Source of the DNA: Pseudomonadota bacterium
GTDB lineage: Bacteria > Pseudomonadota > Alphaproteobacteria > Rhodobacterales > Rhodobacteraceae
DNA: 34,559 nucleotides
Direction of reading: 5' to 3'
Assembly (NCBI GenBank): GCA_963205235.1
Contig: CAUJIP010000100.1
Location: 1 to 34,559, forward strand
This document shows positions 9,016 to 24,799 of this stretch, one piece after another (position 1 is the stretch's first letter; every line of letters begins with the position of its first letter). The translations under genes were made by a program, and so were the position numbers. The notes beneath the pieces were generated by a model. That model searched no databases, was not told the DNA's origin, and saw only the letters and a program-made list of their open reading frames with translations.

Positions 9016-9135
9016 GTCAGGGGCTGACGGCGTCGACTTGAGGTCGACCACAAGATTTCATGCGGATTATGAATTTGTTTCTTCGCCGTTGCCGTGGCAA
9101 TGGTGCGGGACGCTGCAATTTCACGGATGGCCCAG

Positions 9136-10149
9136 ATGACCGACGCACTTTCCCTTATGCTCGCTTCGCGCGACTGGCTGATGGCCGACGGGGCCACGGG
9201 AACGAACCTGTTCAACATGGGTCTGGAATCGGGCGAGCCGCCGGAATTCTGGAACACCGACAAGCCGGATAACATCCGCAAGCTGTACGGCGCTGCCGTC
9301 GCGGCGGGGTCGGATATTTTCCTGACCAACACGTTTGGCGGCAATGCGTCGCGGCTGAAACTGCATTCGGCGCAGGGCCGGGTTGCCGAGTTGAACCGAG
9401 TGGGCGCGGAACTGGGGCGCGAGATCGCCGACAAGGCCGGGCGTTCGGTGGTGGTCGCGGGGTCGGTTGGCCCCACGGGCGAGATTTTCGAGCCGATGGG
9501 CACGATGACCCATGCGCTGGCGGTGGAAATCTTCCACGAGCAGGCCGAGGCTTTGAAGGTGGGCGGGGCGGATGTCCTGTGGGTCGAAACCATGAGCGCG
9601 CCCGAAGAATACCGCGCGGCGGCTGAGGCTGCGCTGCGGGCGGGCATGCCCTGGTGCGGCACGATGAGCTTTGACACCGCAGGGCGCACGATGATGGGCG
9701 TCACTTCGGCGGCGATGGCCGAGATGGTGGAAAAACTGCCGAACCCGCCGATTGCTTTTGGCGCGAACTGCGGGGTCGGGGCGTCGGACCTGTTGCGGAC
9801 GGTCCTTGGCTTTGTCGCGACCGGGACCGAACGGCCGCTAATTGCCAAGGGCAATGCCGGGATCCCGAAATATCATGACGGGCATATCCATTACGACGGC
9901 ACGCCGGAACTAATGGCTGAATATGCGGTGCTGGCCCGCGATTCGGGGGTGCGGATCATCGGCGGCTGCTGTGGCACGATGCCGGAACATCTGCGCGCGA
10001 TGCGTGACGCGCTGGAAACCCGCCCGAAAGGCCCGAAACCCTCGCTGGAGGATATTGCGGCGCATCTGGGCGGATTCTCGTCTGCTTCGGATGGCACCGG
10101 CGATACCTCGGGCGAACCAAAGCGCGAACGGCGGGGGCGGCGGGGGTAG
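9136..10149 (+). CDS. bmt: Homocysteine S-methyltransferase (betaine-homocysteine methyltransferase-like; MetH homocysteine module)
   Basis: 337-residue zinc enzyme of the homocysteine methyltransferase barrel family (N-terminal domain of MetH; BHMT). N-terminus LMADGATGTNLFNMGL is the substrate loop. The zinc ligands are C212 (GANCGVG) and C278/C279 (GGCCGT), all present. VAGSVGPTGEIFEPMG and ETMSAPEE are further barrel motifs. There is no folate or B12 domain in the chain. The corrinoid gene 1.3 kb downstream suggests that it takes its methyl group from that partner, as I recall for the split methionine synthase of Phaeobacter inhibens; annotators usually call it betaine-homocysteine methyltransferase. 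Start is uncertain: ATG at 9136 (MTDALS) chosen, ATG 9127 and GTG 9094 possible; none has a strong ribosome site. Confidence 0.92.
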   Translation: MTDALSLMLASRDWLMADGATGTNLFNMGLESGEPPEFWNTDKPDNIRKLYGAAVAAGSDIFLTNTFGGNASRLKLHSAQGRVAELNRVGAELGREIADKAGRSVVVAGSVGPTGEIFEPMGTMTHALAVEIFHEQAEALKVGGADVLWVETMSAPEEYRAAAEAALRAGMPWCGTMSFDTAGRTMMGVTSAAMAEMVEKLPNPPIAFGANCGVGASDLLRTVLGFVATGTERPLIAKGNAGIPKYHDGHIHYDGTPELMAEYAVLARDSGVRIIGGCCGTMPEHLRAMRDALETRPKGPKPSLEDIAAHLGGFSSASDGTGDTSGEPKRERRGRRG

Positions 10150-10154
10150 GGGCC

Positions 10155-10201
10155 AAAATCCTTAAGCAAGGATTTTGACAGATTTCTTGCTTAAGAAATT
10201 T
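10155..10201. repeat. 47-base twin-hairpin repeat, copy 1
   Basis: Two hairpins separated by GAC: AAAATCCTT-AAGC-AAGGATTTT, then AGATTTCTT-GCTT-AAGAAATTT, each nine pairs with a four-base loop. Nearly the same 47 bases recur at 15814-15860. It lies between convergent genes (bmt stop, radical SAM stop) and could act as a two-way terminator. Confidence 0.85.
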
Positions 10202-10219
10202 GGGTCCAGCGGTGTCGGT

Positions 10220-11305
10220 TCAGAACAATGACAACTGGTCGCCTGCCCTTGGGGGCGGGCGGAACAGGTCGCAGCGCAACTTGGGCAGGCCTTCGGCAAG
10301 GCCCAGGCGATTGCGGGCAAGGTCGGCGCGGCGGTGGATAAGCTCGGCCCAAAGGCCCTGACCGGTCATCCGTTTGCCAAACTCCGGGTCATAGTCGCGA
10401 CCGCCGTGCAGGTCGCGGACCCGCCCCATCACCCGTGCGGCGCGGTCGGGGAAACTGGTGGCCAGCCAGTCGCGGAACAGAGCCGACACCTCCAGCGGCA
10501 GGCGCAGGGGAATGGTGTTTGCCGCCTGCGCACCCGCATCGCGGCCCGCTTGCATCACGGCCTCAAGCTCATGATCGGTCAGGGCCGGGATCAGGGGTGA
10601 GACCTGGATCCGCACCGGGATACCTGCATCCGCCAAACGTCGGATGATCTGCAACCGGCGTTTCGGGGTCGGGGCACGGGGTTCCATCTTGCGCGCCACG
10701 GTTTCGTCCAGCGTGGTGACCGAGATCGACACCGACGCCAGCCCCTGCGCCGCCAAGGGGGCGATCAAGTCAATGTCGCGTTCGATGGTCGTGCCGCGCG
10801 TGGTGATCCAGACCGGATGGTGAAACCTGGCCATGACAGCAAGGATTTCGCGCATCAGGCCATGCTCACGCTCCACCGGTTGATAGGGATCGGTGTTGGT
10901 GCCGATGGCGATGGGTTGAACCTTGTAGGCGGGGCGACGCAGTTCGGCGTCAAGCACAGCGGCAATGCCGGGGCGGGCGATCAGCCGGGTTTCGAAATCA
11001 AGCCCCGGTGACAGGTTCAGAAAGGCATGGCTGGGCCGTGCATAGCAATAGATGCAGCCATGTTCGCAGCCGCGATAGGGATTGATCGACCGATCAAACG
11101 GCAGGTCGGGTGAGCGGTTGTAGGTGATGGCGGAACGGGGGCGTTCCAGCCGGACTTCGGTTGCGATCAGACGCTCGTCCTCGGGCAGGTCCCAGCCATC
11201 GTCATAGGCATCCCGCTGGGCAGATTCGAACCGTCCGGCGCGGTTGCTTGCCGCCCCCCGCGCGCGCAATCTTTGACCGGGAAGGAAGCCGTCGCCACTG
11301 TTCAT
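10220..11305 (-). CDS. Radical SAM protein, PA0069/Rv2578c-like family
   Basis: 361-residue radical S-adenosylmethionine enzyme. The [4Fe-4S] motif CEHGCIYC (C80, C84, C87) follows INPYRG, the order typical of the PA0069 family, which is related to spore photoproduct lyase in sequence but has no established reaction. Further landmarks are IAIGTNTDPYQPVER, SVSISVTTLDE and RIQVSPLIPALTDHELEAVMQAGRDAGAQAANTIPLRLP. The ATG at 11305 is chosen; a TTG two codons earlier is possible. It lies on the minus strand between bmt and the corrinoid gene. The same intervening position is, as far as I recall, kept in related genomes, so a link to the methyltransferase system is possible but unproven. Confidence 0.88.
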   Translation of the reverse strand: MNSGDGFLPGQRLRARGAASNRAGRFESAQRDAYDDGWDLPEDERLIATEVRLERPRSAITYNRSPDLPFDRSINPYRGCEHGCIYCYARPSHAFLNLSPGLDFETRLIARPGIAAVLDAELRRPAYKVQPIAIGTNTDPYQPVEREHGLMREILAVMARFHHPVWITTRGTTIERDIDLIAPLAAQGLASVSISVTTLDETVARKMEPRAPTPKRRLQIIRRLADAGIPVRIQVSPLIPALTDHELEAVMQAGRDAGAQAANTIPLRLPLEVSALFRDWLATSFPDRAARVMGRVRDLHGGRDYDPEFGKRMTGQGLWAELIHRRADLARNRLGLAEGLPKLRCDLFRPPPRAGDQLSLF

Positions 11306-11462
11306 GCCCAAGAATAGAACGAATGAGGAACATGGTCTACAGAATTCCCGTCCGCGACGGCTTTCTGTCGGCTTTCAACTGGTGTATGTCGCTTGTCGGA
11401 AAGTGGATCACCGGCTTTGCGCCCATTCACTTCGTCAAACCCCTGCGCTTGGAGCGTGCCCC

Positions 11463-12152
11463 ATGGCCGAAGACGACATCATCCTCTCTGAACTTTCGGA
11501 CGACGAACTTGTCTTGCAGATGCATGACGACCTCTATGACGGTCTGAAGGAAGAGATCGAAGAGGGCGTGAACATCCTGATCGCGCGCGGGTGGACGCCC
11601 TATGACACGCTGACCAAGGCGCTGGTTGCGGGCATGACCATCGTCGGCGCCGACTTCCGCGACGGCATCCTGTTCGTGCCGGAAGTGCTTCTGGCAGCCA
11701 ACGCGATGAAGGCGGGGATGTTCATCCTCAAGCCGCTGCTGGTGGAAACCGGCGCACCGCGCATGGGCAAGATGGTGATCGGCACCGTCAAGGGCGACAT
11801 CCACGACATCGGCAAGAACCTTGTCGGCATGATGATGGAAGGCGCTGGCTTCGAGGTCAAAGACCTTGGCATCAACAACTCGGTCGAGAAATATCTGGAA
11901 GCGCTGGAAAGCGAAAAGCCCGATATCCTTGGCATGTCGGCCCTGCTGACCACCACCATGCCCTATATGAAAGTCGTGATCGACACGATGAAGGAAAAGG
12001 GCATGCGCGATGATTACATCGTCCTCGTCGGTGGCGCGCCCCTGAACGAAGAATTCGGCAAGGCGATTGGCGCGGATGCCTATTGCCGGGACGCCGCTGT
12101 CGCGGTGGAAACCGCCAAGTCCTTCGTCGCGCGCAAGCACAACCAGGCCTGA
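11463..12152 (+). CDS. Corrinoid (methylcobalamin-binding) protein, MtbC/MetH B12-module type
   Basis: 229-residue methyl-carrier protein. An N-terminal helical cap (residues ~15-100, LYDGLKEEIEEGVNILIARGWTP...) is followed by a B12-binding Rossmann domain with the base-off motif GDIHDIGKN, where His114 is the lower cobalt ligand. GMSALLTTTMPYMK and VGGAPLNEEFGKAIGAD are the other B12-loop motifs. The ATG at 11463 is preceded by GGAG; the longer frame to 11304 has no family similarity. With bmt it would form two of the three parts of a split methionine synthase. A methyl-tetrahydrofolate:corrinoid methyltransferase and a reactivase are not in this window. The small membrane gene and the DUF1638 gene follow in the same direction. 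Confidence 0.94.
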   Translation: MAEDDIILSELSDDELVLQMHDDLYDGLKEEIEEGVNILIARGWTPYDTLTKALVAGMTIVGADFRDGILFVPEVLLAANAMKAGMFILKPLLVETGAPRMGKMVIGTVKGDIHDIGKNLVGMMMEGAGFEVKDLGINNSVEKYLEALESEKPDILGMSALLTTTMPYMKVVIDTMKEKGMRDDYIVLVGGAPLNEEFGKAIGADAYCRDAAVAVETAKSFVARKHNQA

Positions 12153-12234
12153 GAGACGACCCCGAAGTCGTGATCTGGGCGGGGCTTGAAAAGGGCCCGC
12201 CCAAGGCGCAAATTGACTGTCAGGGAGGCAACCG

Positions 12235-12393
12235 ATGCCCTTGACGCATTTCCTTGGACTGATCGCCCTTGTGATCCTGGCCGCAGGATTGACCATCTGG
12301 CTTGCACTATGGTCCGGCCTGCCCTTCGTCGCCCTTGCCGTTGCCGCGCTTTCTGCCAGCCTGATCCTGACCTGGACCCGGGTCAGCCGCTAG
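12235..12393 (+). CDS. Small two-helix membrane protein (52 residues)
   Basis: A short gene too small for ordinary ORF cut-offs: ATG at 12235, TAG at 12391-12393, with a strong GGGAGG six bases before the start. It encodes about two membrane spans: residues 6-24 (FLGLIALVILAAGLTIWLA) and 28-46 (GLPFVALAVAALSASLILT), with a short Trp/Arg tail (WTRVSR). No family is recognised. It lies between the corrinoid gene and the DUF1638 gene, 82 and 24 bases away, so it is probably co-transcribed with them. The good ribosome site and clean hydrophobic pattern argue that it is real. Confidence 0.72.
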   Translation: MPLTHFLGLIALVILAAGLTIWLALWSGLPFVALAVAALSASLILTWTRVSR

Positions 12394-12417
12394 GCCCACT
12401 TTGTGCAAGGCCCCTTG

Positions 12418-13056
12418 ATGGATGACATCACCCTTAGCGAAACCGGCCTTGCGCCCGCCCGTTCCGGTCGCGTCCTGTTGATCGCCTGCGGCGCCTTGGC
12501 GCATGAGATCCTCGCGCTGAAATCCGCGAACGACTGGACGCATCTTGACCTGCAATGCCTGCCCGCCAAACTGCATCTCTGGCCCGAGAAGATCATCCCG
12601 GCCATGGAAGAGGCGGTGTTCGAGGCGCGGGGCCGCTATGACACGATCTTCGTCGTCTACGCCGATTGCGGCACCGGGGGTCTTCTGCAGGCCGCCTGCG
12701 ACCGGCTGGGGGTCGAGATGGTGGAAGGTCCGCATTGCTATTCCTTCTTCGAGGGCAACGCGACCTTCGCCGAAAGGTCAGAGACGGAATTCACCGCCTT
12801 TTACCTGACCGATTTCCTGGTCCGCCAGTTCGATGCCTTCGTCTGGAAGCCGATGGGTCTGGACCGCCACCCCGATCTGCGGGACATGTATTTCGGCAAT
12901 TACACCAAGCTGGTCTATCAGGCACAGGTCAACGACCCCGCGCTGGACGCCAAGGCCGAAGACTGCGCCCGACGGCTTGGGCTGGAGTATGAGCGGCGGT
13001 TCACCGGCTATGGCGATCTGGCGGCAACGCTTGGGCGCGTCGCCGCCAAGGGGTGA
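12418..13056 (+). CDS. DUF1638 domain protein
   Basis: 212-residue cytoplasmic protein of the DUF1638 family, function unknown. Features that suggest an enzyme or metal/cofactor protein: RVLLIACGALAHEI near the N-terminus, QCLPAKLHLWPEKIIPAMEEAV, VVYADCGTGG with a conserved Cys, and VEGPHCYSFFEG with a His-Cys pair. Three conserved Cys (in IACGAL, YADCGTGG and PHCYSF) could bind a metal or iron-sulfur cluster. The family is found next to corrinoid proteins and methyltransferases in many genomes, so a role in B12-dependent methyl transfer is likely by context. Start ATG at 12418 is preferred over GTG 12403. The stop codon abuts the stop of the convergent outer-membrane gene. Its last 19 codons are duplicated at 13784. 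Confidence 0.85.
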   Translation: MDDITLSETGLAPARSGRVLLIACGALAHEILALKSANDWTHLDLQCLPAKLHLWPEKIIPAMEEAVFEARGRYDTIFVVYADCGTGGLLQAACDRLGVEMVEGPHCYSFFEGNATFAERSETEFTAFYLTDFLVRQFDAFVWKPMGLDRHPDLRDMYFGNYTKLVYQAQVNDPALDAKAEDCARRLGLEYERRFTGYGDLAATLGRVAAKG

Positions 13057-21189: not shown

Positions 21190-21513
21190 AAGGGGGAAGT
21201 GCCGGATTCTGTTGCCAGGCTCCGGCGGGCCCCGCCTTACGGGGCTAACCGCAAGGACTTAGTTTTGGTATTGCGAGCCGCTTACGCGGCCAGCGCCACC
21301 GGAGCACGGTTGTCGTTGGCAACTGTGATCATGGACCGATAACGGTGGTACCTCACCGAGCGAAAGCTGGCCTCTTTGGTCGTTCGTCGATCCTATTTCG
21401 GCCCCACACGCCCCAACGAAGGGAAAGTCTGGTGGAGCCGCCGGGTACCGCCCCCGGGTCCGAGCCGATTATTACAGGTGCGTTTATCGCCATAGTCGGG
21501 GTTACCCCCGACG
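21190..21513 (-). ncRNA. ssrA: Two-piece (circularly permuted) alphaproteobacterial tmRNA
   Basis: Read on the minus strand. The acceptor piece comes first (about 21513-21430) and ends in GGCTCCACCA. A 24-base spacer (21429-21406) follows. The coding piece starts at 21405 with GGGGCCGAAATAGGATCGAC; its GGGGCC pairs with GGCTCC of the acceptor piece. The tag reading frame at 21320-21282 encodes ANDNRAPVALAA and TAA, the known alphaproteobacterial degradation tag. The 3' end carries two GC-rich hairpins (ending near CCGGCACTTCCCC). Both outer ends are approximate. A good sigma70 promoter sits immediately upstream. tmRNA with SmpB rescues stalled ribosomes; tagged proteins go to ClpXP, whose adaptor SspB is also in this window. 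Confidence 0.96.
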
Positions 21514-21518
21514 GGGCC

Positions 21519-21547
21519 AATATAGGGGGGCGGGGGGCGGGGTGCAA
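21519..21547 (-). promoter_or_regulatory. Sigma70-type promoter of ssrA
   Basis: On the minus strand, TTGCAC (21547-21542), 17-base C-rich spacer, TATATT (21524-21519), then the start of the tmRNA precursor about seven bases on. Spacing is ideal and the -10 differs from TATAAT by one base. Confidence 0.8.
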
Positions 21548-23124: not shown

Positions 23125-24525
23125 TCAGCCGCAGACCTCGTAGCCATTCTCGTCGACATAGCAGCCACCACCACCGCTGTCTTCGTAGGAAGGCTCTTCA
23201 TAGACCGGCTCCTCGTAGGATTCCTCATAGACCGACTCTTCGTAGGTTTCCTCATAGGCTGGCTCTTCGTAGGTCTCTTCGTAAGCTGGTTCCTCGTAGG
23301 TCTCTTCGTAAGCTGGTTCCTCGTAGGTTTCCTCATATGCGGGTTCTTCGTAGCCCGAGCCGTCGTCATAGGCTTCGGGAGCGGGCTCGTCGTAGGTCTC
23401 GTCATAGGCTTCGGGAGCGGGCTCGTCGTATGTCTCGTCATAGGCTTCGGGAGCGGCCTCGTCGTAGGTCTCGTCATAGGCCTCGGAGGCGGGCTCGTCG
23501 TATGTCTCGTCATAGGCCTCGGGAGCGGCCTCGTCGTAGGTCTCGTCATAGGCCTCGGGTGCGGGCTCGTCGTAGGTCTCGTCATAGGCCTCGGGTGCGG
23601 CTTCGTCGTAGCTTTCGTCATAGGCTTCGGGGTCGAGATAGCCGTAGGCTTCGGCGTCCTCATAGCTCAGCCCGGTTTCGGGATCGTAGGCCTCGTCCTC
23701 GTAGTAGTAGTCGGTCGACTCATACTCGGCATAGAATTCTTCGGAACTGTAGTAGGCGTCGACTTCCTCGATGTAATAGTCGTCGTCCGGCCAGTCATAG
23801 CCTGCAGCAGAGTCGTCGTAATAGAAGTAGGTCTCGCTGCTTTCGATCGAGGTGATGTAGACCTCGGTGACGATGACCTCTTCGACGTAGATCAGGGTGT
23901 AGTCGTAGACCTGATAGAAGTCGTCATAATAGCTGTCGCAGAAGTCGGAATAGTAGAAGCCGCCACCGCTATAGTAATAGCCGTCGTCGCCGCGATATCC
24001 GTTGCCGCGCTTGGCCTTGGACTTGGACCCGCCGGTATTGTAGGCTCGCCATTTCGAGACGTTCTCAAGCGCGACGGGCTTTTCATAGTCTTCGTTCGTC
24101 AGCTCGACGATCGTCTTCTTCTTCCTGTTCTTCCAGGTGCCCTCGAAGAAAAAGTAGTTCGTGCCCGCCTTCAGCTTGTAGCGGATCATGCTGTCCAGAT
24201 CGACCGGGCGGCGCAGCGCCTTGTCGTCCAGTTCGGTGATGACCTCGCCGGGTTCCAGGCCGTAAAGTTCACCTACACCGCCGGGATCGACCGAAACGAT
24301 CACCAGGCCGGCCGCCTTTTTGCCAAGCTTGAATTCCTTGCGGACCTCAGCGGTGATCGGCAGCAGGACAGCGTCCAGGGCGGGCGAAACATAGGGTTTT
24401 GGCAGACCCTTTTCGGCCAATGCGGCGCTGGCGGGCAAGACTGCGACCGAAAGGCCAAGTGAAAGGGCGCCAATTGCCCGTCGGAAGGCAAGGCCGTGTC
24501 GAATGAAGAATTGGGAAACTGGCAT
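23125..24525 (-). CDS. Secreted PDZ-like protein with Tyr/Glu/Asp-rich repeat tail
   Basis: 466 residues; no family recognised for the whole chain. Signal peptide at residues ~12-38 (AFRRAIGALSLGLSVAVLPA..., cleavage near ALA-EKG). Residues ~45-145 look like a PDZ domain (GLVIVSVDPGGVGELYGLEP, then EVITELDDKALRRPVDLDSM). Residues ~175-300 are extremely rich in Tyr, Asp and Glu, with runs such as YYYSGGGFYYSDFCDSYYDDFYQVY. Then come seven 12-residue repeats (consensus EAYDETYDEPAP, 300-383), six 9-residue repeats (consensus YEEPAYEET, 392-445) and a GGGGCYVDENGYEVCG end with two cysteines. About one residue in seven is Tyr, and the tail is strongly acidic. An AAGGA ribosome site precedes the ATG. 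It probably acts in the periplasm or outside the cell; metal binding, tyrosine cross-linking or self-assembly are guesses. Confidence 0.88.
   Translation of the reverse strand: MPVSQFFIRHGLAFRRAIGALSLGLSVAVLPASAALAEKGLPKPYVSPALDAVLLPITAEVRKEFKLGKKAAGLVIVSVDPGGVGELYGLEPGEVITELDDKALRRPVDLDSMIRYKLKAGTNYFFFEGTWKNRKKKTIVELTNEDYEKPVALENVSKWRAYNTGGSKSKAKRGNGYRGDDGYYYSGGGFYYSDFCDSYYDDFYQVYDYTLIYVEEVIVTEVYITSIESSETYFYYDDSAAGYDWPDDDYYIEEVDAYYSSEEFYAEYESTDYYYEDEAYDPETGLSYEDAEAYGYLDPEAYDESYDEAAPEAYDETYDEPAPEAYDETYDEAAPEAYDETYDEPASEAYDETYDEAAPEAYDETYDEPAPEAYDETYDEPAPEAYDDGSGYEEPAYEETYEEPAYEETYEEPAYEETYEEPAYEETYEESVYEESYEEPVYEEPSYEDSGGGGCYVDENGYEVCG
23191..23352 (-). repeat. Six 27-base tandem coding repeats
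   Basis: Encodes YEEPAYEET four times followed by two variants (YEESVYEES, YEEPVYEEP). Units are highly alike at DNA level, so copy number may vary between strains. Confidence 0.9.
23377..23628 (-). repeat. Seven 36-base tandem coding repeats
   Basis: Encodes EAYDE(S/T)YDE(A/P)A(P/S) seven times. AAP and PAP units alternate for most of the array (A-P-A-P-A-P-P), which points to growth by a 72-base double unit followed by single-unit slippage. Confidence 0.92.
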
Positions 24526-24730: not shown

Positions 24731-24767
24731 AAAATGCAAAAGGCCGCCCCCGGTTGAAGGGACGGCC
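24731..24767 (-). terminator. Terminator of the binding-protein gene
   Basis: On the minus strand GGCCGTCCC, eight-base loop, GGGGCGGCC, then TTTTGCATTTTC: nine pairs with one G-T, 33 bases after the stop. Confidence 0.88.
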
Positions 24768-24799
24768 TGAGGATTTGAAGCCGAGCGGAGTGGTCGGGA

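Follow-up and report, generated by a model that had tools for sequence, protein, structure and literature searches.

The window, a stretch of 34,559 nucleotides from a Rhodobacteraceae genome assembly, carries on its minus strand a complete gene for a 466-residue protein (23125..24525, reading from an ATG start codon at 24525 down to 23125), delimited by its open reading frame and by its homologues. The gene is real and far from a product of chance. The chain opens with a putative signal peptide (residues 1–38; 24412..24525), in which an AxA site precedes EKGLPKPY and cleavage probably occurs after AALA. This assignment was made by eye from the sequence and from an alignment of four homologues, all of which display a hydrophobic stretch and then A-x-A shortly before an invariant LPKPY; dN/dS comparison marks the region as fast-evolving. 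An HtrA-type PDZ domain follows (residues 41–163; 24037..24405), with an invariant Trp (W159) near its end, and behind it lies a conserved Tyr/Asp/Glu-rich segment (residues 173–296; 23638..24009), defined by alignment and dN/dS. Tandem Repeats Finder then delimits two arrays on the same strand, comprising 7.5 copies of a 36-nt unit encoding EAYDETYDEPAP (23363..23631, 91% matches) and 5.8 copies of a 27-nt unit encoding YEEPAYEET (23198..23353, 86% matches). The protein closes with a GGGGC-YVDENGYEV-C end (residues 450–466; 23125..23178 including the stop codon), and a third, invariant Cys (C196) is contributed by the Tyr/Asp/Glu segment.

Tyr accounts for 66 of the 466 residues (14.2%), and 121 Asp and Glu against 29 Lys and Arg give a net charge of −92. 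Lys, Arg, and His are all absent from residues 179–466. Both arrays are in frame, forming seven 12-residue copies with variants and six nine-residue copies, four of them exact. Codon differences summed over all pairs of the seven 12-mers amount to 46 synonymous and 24 non-synonymous; the corresponding values for seven nine-residue steps, the last of which lies outside the array, are 59 and 70. These counts agree with the first-pass annotation, which had described seven and six repeats, Tyr at roughly one residue in seven with a large negative charge, and a short end with two Cys. Its proposed signal peptide is likewise matched by the signal-peptide-like N-terminus, and its PDZ-like domain by the profile searches described below.

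No family in Pfam or NCBIfam reaches its cut-off on the 466-residue protein. The best match is Pfam PDZ_6, just under its threshold (E 1.4e-5, 25.2 bits; cut-off 27), and over the PDZ part the NCBIfam model degP_htrA_DO scores 23.9 bits against a cut-off of 416.2. Two further matches fall below cut-off and were attributed to composition or chance: YL1_C to the Tyr segment (E 0.0062, over 16 residues and in one of four members) and Cuticle_3 (E 0.019). A phage or defense origin was rejected, as PHROGs, PADLOC, phage records, and viral contigs contained no match. AlphaFold prediction of residues 39–307 from four alignment rows was too unreliable to use (mean pLDDT 37, pTM 0.24). Literature searches of open-licence PMC articles, judged by titles and opening abstract lines, yielded no paper on such a protein. 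The chain places a familiar domain in a novel context, and no curated family covers it as a whole. The earlier statement that the protein belongs to no known family thus stands for the complete chain, which matches no family in full and has homologues of the same layout, and fails for the head, which is identifiably an HtrA-type PDZ.

The kinship of this head was traced with sequence and structure profiles. A profile of six PDZ rows (A5) matches 109 of 385 genomes of the class at E ≤ 1e-9. The 466-residue protein scores 227 bits against at most 58.7 bits for the other 108; in the family-level search described below, two relatives from other genera, L113 and L114, reach 107 and 74.4 bits. The 29 foreign loci among the matches listed all contain a serine-protease motif, and the profile matches best at 0.80–0.84 of their chains, corresponding to the last PDZ of HtrA. 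Five further matches lie in frames shorter than 300 residues that begin at a contig start and end within approximately 30 residues past the PDZ; these had been candidates for stand-alone PDZ genes, but they are cut by the contig, lack an acidic tail, and are likely truncated proteases. Several weaker-matching frames (domain E 4e-10 or worse) have no serine-protease motif, and other PDZ proteins are also within reach of the profile at low scores. With the Rhizobium protein P0002 as query, the 466-residue protein scores 80 bits (E 3.6e-22), and the next best among the 385 class genomes, a 530-residue frame carrying the protease motif, 49.1 bits. Judged by these search scores, the PDZ domains of the family appear nearer to one another than to the HtrA PDZ. 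Two Rhizobium relatives match PDZ_2 at 32.2 and 33.2 bits, above its cut-off of 27.

Among solved structures, the PDZ profile identifies DegP and DegQ, their first PDZ equally well as or better than their second, which leaves descent from the last PDZ uncertain; tandem PDZ domains of a zinc metalloprotease reach similar scores. By profile similarity, the domain is of the HtrA type without a protease. It shares this type with HtrA, DegP, and DegQ, and differs from them in having no protease domain (Pfam detects no trypsin-like domain in the 466 residues, and the GNSGG motif is lacking), a single PDZ, and an acidic, Tyr-rich tail.

Within the genus, the first 167 residues match four of 32 genomes at E ≤ 1e-10. 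A scan of public genomes yielded three records, L037, L038, and L039 (Rhodobacterales or Rhodobacteraceae metagenome assemblies), whose frames are those of the three other genus matches and are 70%, 70%, and 64% identical to the 466-residue protein, respectively; the L037 frame stops at a contig end inside the repeats. A tail query matched three of the 32 genomes, each at this gene or its homologue, so that no other protein of the genus was found with such a tail; the homologue in genome G013, which is cut inside the repeats, escaped the query. A profile of the Tyr segment searched against 394 genomes of the family, nearly one per genus, matched the source genome alone, and no relatives of the segment were found in plasmid DNA.

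The Tyr/Asp/Glu segment is almost as constant as the domain preceding it. Among the four homologues, 73 of 118 columns are invariant in residues 179–296, and 81 of 123 in the PDZ part. Conservation is concentrated in Tyr (21 of 29 invariant), Asp (13 of 18), Gly (8 of 8), Phe (5 of 5), and the single Cys; only 4 of 16 Glu are invariant. The segment also contains an alternating Y/V/I/T stretch, YDYTLIYVEEVIVTEVYITS. Nei-Gojobori dN/dS values against L038, L037, and L039 are 0.26, 0.37, and 0.28 for residues 173–296, and 0.26, 0.15, and 0.27 for the PDZ. Both parts are under purifying selection. The first-pass annotation was therefore right that approximately 125 residues here are rich in Tyr, Asp, and Glu, and wrong to class them as low complexity.

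Behind this segment the repeats are replaced from one homologue to the next. Unit lengths are 36 and 27 nt in the 466-residue protein, 45 and 15 nt in L038, 27 and 15 nt in L039, and 27 nt (also seen as 54) and 15 nt (also seen as 30) in L037. All four repeat tails nevertheless have Asp and Glu fractions of 0.38–0.43, Tyr fractions of 0.13–0.22, and no Lys, Arg, or His. That composition is kept while the units differ points to selection acting on overall composition, which would be expected of a polyelectrolyte. Tail dN/dS values against L038, L037, and L039 are 0.24, 0.36, and 0.24, calculated on a doubtful tail alignment. The 466-residue protein and L038 share the CYVDENGYEVC end; L039 lacks it and terminates in EEPVYYE, and L037 is cut before this point.

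Relatives outside the genus were sought with tblastn of residues 39–307 against 72,556 plasmid records. Six Rhizobium plasmids match, over the PDZ part only (33.6–37.2% identity, E 1e-17 to 1e-15). The four Rhizobium proteins that were read have a signal-peptide-like start, a PDZ, and a Ser/Asp/Glu tail. Existing records (WP_260299732.1, UIY27773.1, WP_183608991.1) name them PDZ domain-containing proteins, an annotation without function. They resemble the 466-residue protein in this start, the conserved Trp, and the acidic tail (0–3 basic residues in the four counted), and differ in a C-terminal part of 54–82 residues that is Ser-rich with 2–6% Tyr, and in the neighbors of their genes. In a sample of 275 genomes of the family, nearly one per genus, the A5 profile matches three at E ≤ 1e-12: the source genome and two from other genera. 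L113 (315 residues) has a PDZ followed by SYSYESFSYEEFYSEYSETIIESYESSESYIEE and SYEEPVAEE repeats, and lacks the C-terminal Cys pair. L114 (414 residues) has a Lys/Gly-rich insert in the PDZ, YSEYSYNYSEYMTSYSSQ and EEPPAEEYTDEAAVE repeats, and a C-x5-C pair near its end. The L114 insert, KKGNATSSTGKKTKAKAGKSGKGKS (L114:568-1812, minus strand, in genome G076), is opposite in charge to the tail of that protein.

Counted after the invariant Trp, nine proteins have Asp and Glu fractions of 0.32–0.45 and 0–6 basic residues (Lys, Arg, and His); the count covers four of the six Rhizobium records and leaves out L037, truncated where its contig stops. Tyr makes up 0.16–0.21 of this part in the three genus members counted and drops to 0.10 in L113, 0.07 in L114, and 0.02–0.06 in Rhizobium (four counted). 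L113 matches the Rhizobium locus L108 (E 7e-7 for the pair, partly over the PDZ end), and the Tyr segment of the 466-residue protein gave no significant match to L113 (E 1.6). On these alignments, all members of the family share the head and the layout, and the Tyr segment as it stands here is seen only in this genus. The 466-residue protein stands alone, is probably exported by the Sec pathway, and belongs to a small family of which we found no description.

The gene lies downstream of a solute-binding-protein gene (PF13343) that 31 of the 32 genomes of the genus contain (E ≤ 1e-80). Three of the four carriers (the source genome, G013, and G020) have it directly 3′ of that gene; in the fourth, G002, the two are on separate contigs, and the contig of the solute-binding gene ends 183 bases past it. 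In the source genome and L038, ssrA lies beyond the PDZ/tail gene with a LysR gene in between, whereas in L039 ssrA begins 195 bases downstream of the PDZ/tail gene and the sequence breaks off on its upstream side. The tmRNA gene of the window (21191..21522, minus strand) is of the ARAGORN tmRNA* kind. ARAGORN also places ssrA within 1.5 kb downstream of the solute-binding gene at six of 30 loci in genomes without the PDZ/tail gene (L050, L052, L056, L066, L071, and L073; in three, ssrA runs past the end of the stretch), and detects none in the downstream stretch covered, up to 1.5 kb, at the other 24. Given its presence in four of 32 genomes and this proximity of ssrA in six non-carriers, the PDZ/tail gene is an accessory insert, or has been lost repeatedly, in a variable stretch near ssrA. 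The distance from the solute-binding gene to ssrA varies within the genus, and genes may be gained and lost in this stretch. A tree built from the solute-binding protein alone, with 30 of its 32 matches, puts carriers in three places and requires three changes, a value reached or undercut by 73 of 500 shuffles. Of its 27 inner branches 16 are open, and the tree does not decide between loss and transfer.

A terminator-like hairpin of 11 pairs with a T-run (24741..24768, minus strand) separates the solute-binding gene from the PDZ/tail gene. It is one of two such sites in the window, against 1.2 expected in shuffles, and no promoter-like site was found in the window. The hairpin hints, weakly, at a separate transcription unit. 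Outside the genus the neighbors change: L113 is flanked by serA-like and FAD-oxidoreductase-like frames and L114 by a nusG-like frame (by eye), and the Rhizobium genes by hpa genes, by GGDEF, lyase, and LysR genes, or by GntR and LysR genes. An operon partner was therefore rejected, and the differing neighbors together with the upstream hairpin suggest a gene working alone.

Elsewhere in the window, the product of an RNase E/G gene (PF10150; 838..3582, plus strand) has a run rich in His and Asp, HDHGHDHGHDHAHDDSHDHDHSEDGHSE, within its N-terminal quarter, and Glu/Ala-rich sequence near its C-terminus; the His run appears suited to metal binding. A cluster at 9094..13056 (plus strand) contains a homocysteine S-methyltransferase-like gene (PF02574), a corrinoid-protein-like frame recognized by eye, and a DUF1638 gene (PF07796), and resembles a set of genes for methyl transfer.

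PDZ domains of the HtrA type recognize hydrophobic C-termini, and a study of DegP gives a model in which peptides with such ends bind PDZ1 (PMC8654288). The explanation we favor, while giving it somewhat less than an even chance, is that the protein is an exported polyanion brush tethered by its PDZ, binding cations, with a length set by repeat recombination. The PDZ would anchor the protein on an envelope partner through the C-terminus of that partner. The approximately 290 residues behind it, with a charge near −100 and no basic residue, would stretch out as a hydrated polyelectrolyte brush, taking up cations (Ca2+, Mg2+, Fe3+) either in the periplasm or on the cell surface. Stickiness, metal ligands, or cross-links could come from Tyr, and recombination between DNA repeats could tune the tail length. 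Other observations strain this model. Within the genus, the Tyr segment is too conserved for a plain brush and could have a particular fold or binding partner; chemistry based on Tyr would not be family-wide, given the Tyr fractions of 0.02–0.10 outside the genus; and the nearest PDZ domains are mostly the last of HtrA, whereas the DegP study describes PDZ1 as the peptide-binding domain and PDZ2 as taking part in assembly and inhibition (PMC8654288).

The protein may instead be a self-assembling or cross-linked envelope or matrix protein, a reading to which we would give perhaps one chance in five. Here the conserved Tyr segment would stack as β-structure or be joined by dityrosine and the terminal Cys pair, the acidic repeats keeping the protein soluble until deposition. 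The invariant Tyr and single Cys of residues 179–296, the alternating stretch noted above, and the Cys pair of the 466-residue protein and L038, which has a counterpart of different sequence close to the L114 terminus, are all consistent with such a role. Relatives outside the genus, however, have few Tyr, the pair is missing in L039 and L113, and no adjoining peroxidase gene was noticed by eye. The strong negative charge would also oppose self-association unless cations are present.

The type of the PDZ suggests a different role, which we consider rather unlikely, as a periplasmic holdase or quality-control accessory. A relative of HtrA without a protease would bind unfolded outer-membrane proteins or the HtrA cage, and the acidic tail would keep the complex soluble. 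Matching to the last HtrA PDZ in all 29 foreign loci listed favors this, as does the assembly of DegP cages, in which, according to the same study, PDZ1 of one subunit binds PDZ2 of another (PMC8654288). Quality control is a core function, however, whereas this gene is accessory in its genus; the equal or better match to the first PDZ of DegP and DegQ makes the underlying descent uncertain, and solubility needs no tail so large.

Periscope proteins are surface proteins with variable tandem repeats, in which folded repeats project a ligand domain. The present family shares tandem repeats with them and differs in its short acidic units of 5 to 15 residues. A comparable surface spacer, in which the PDZ or Tyr segment binds and repeat number sets the distance from the cell, is improbable: each protein has at least two kinds of in-frame array, with species-specific units and copy numbers in collections that contain a single genome per species, but the repeats are C-terminal, no anchor motif is apparent by eye, and the arrays differ in sequence and not in number alone. 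Acidic repetitive proteins also include the tandem-repeat proteins of Ehrlichia and the magnetosome protein MamJ with its acidic repeat part. Neither is known to contain a PDZ, and the 466-residue protein matches no family of the Ehrlichia or MamJ type in Pfam or NCBIfam.

A bolder form of the polyanion brush, to which we would assign only a small likelihood, is a PDZ-docked tyrosine polyanion that responds to metal or oxidation by condensing or cross-linking at the envelope. Its tail would be selected for charge and Tyr content only, the repeat sequence drifting freely, and it would found an undescribed kind of envelope protein. Should the favored explanation hold, four related species whose tails stay acidic and Tyr-rich despite replaced repeat units would be a clear-cut natural example of selection for bulk composition, and an HtrA-type PDZ without a protease would head a predicted exported polyanion across two alphaproteobacterial orders. 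Natural variants, short and long, Tyr-rich and Tyr-poor, would then be available within the family for functional tests of the tail.
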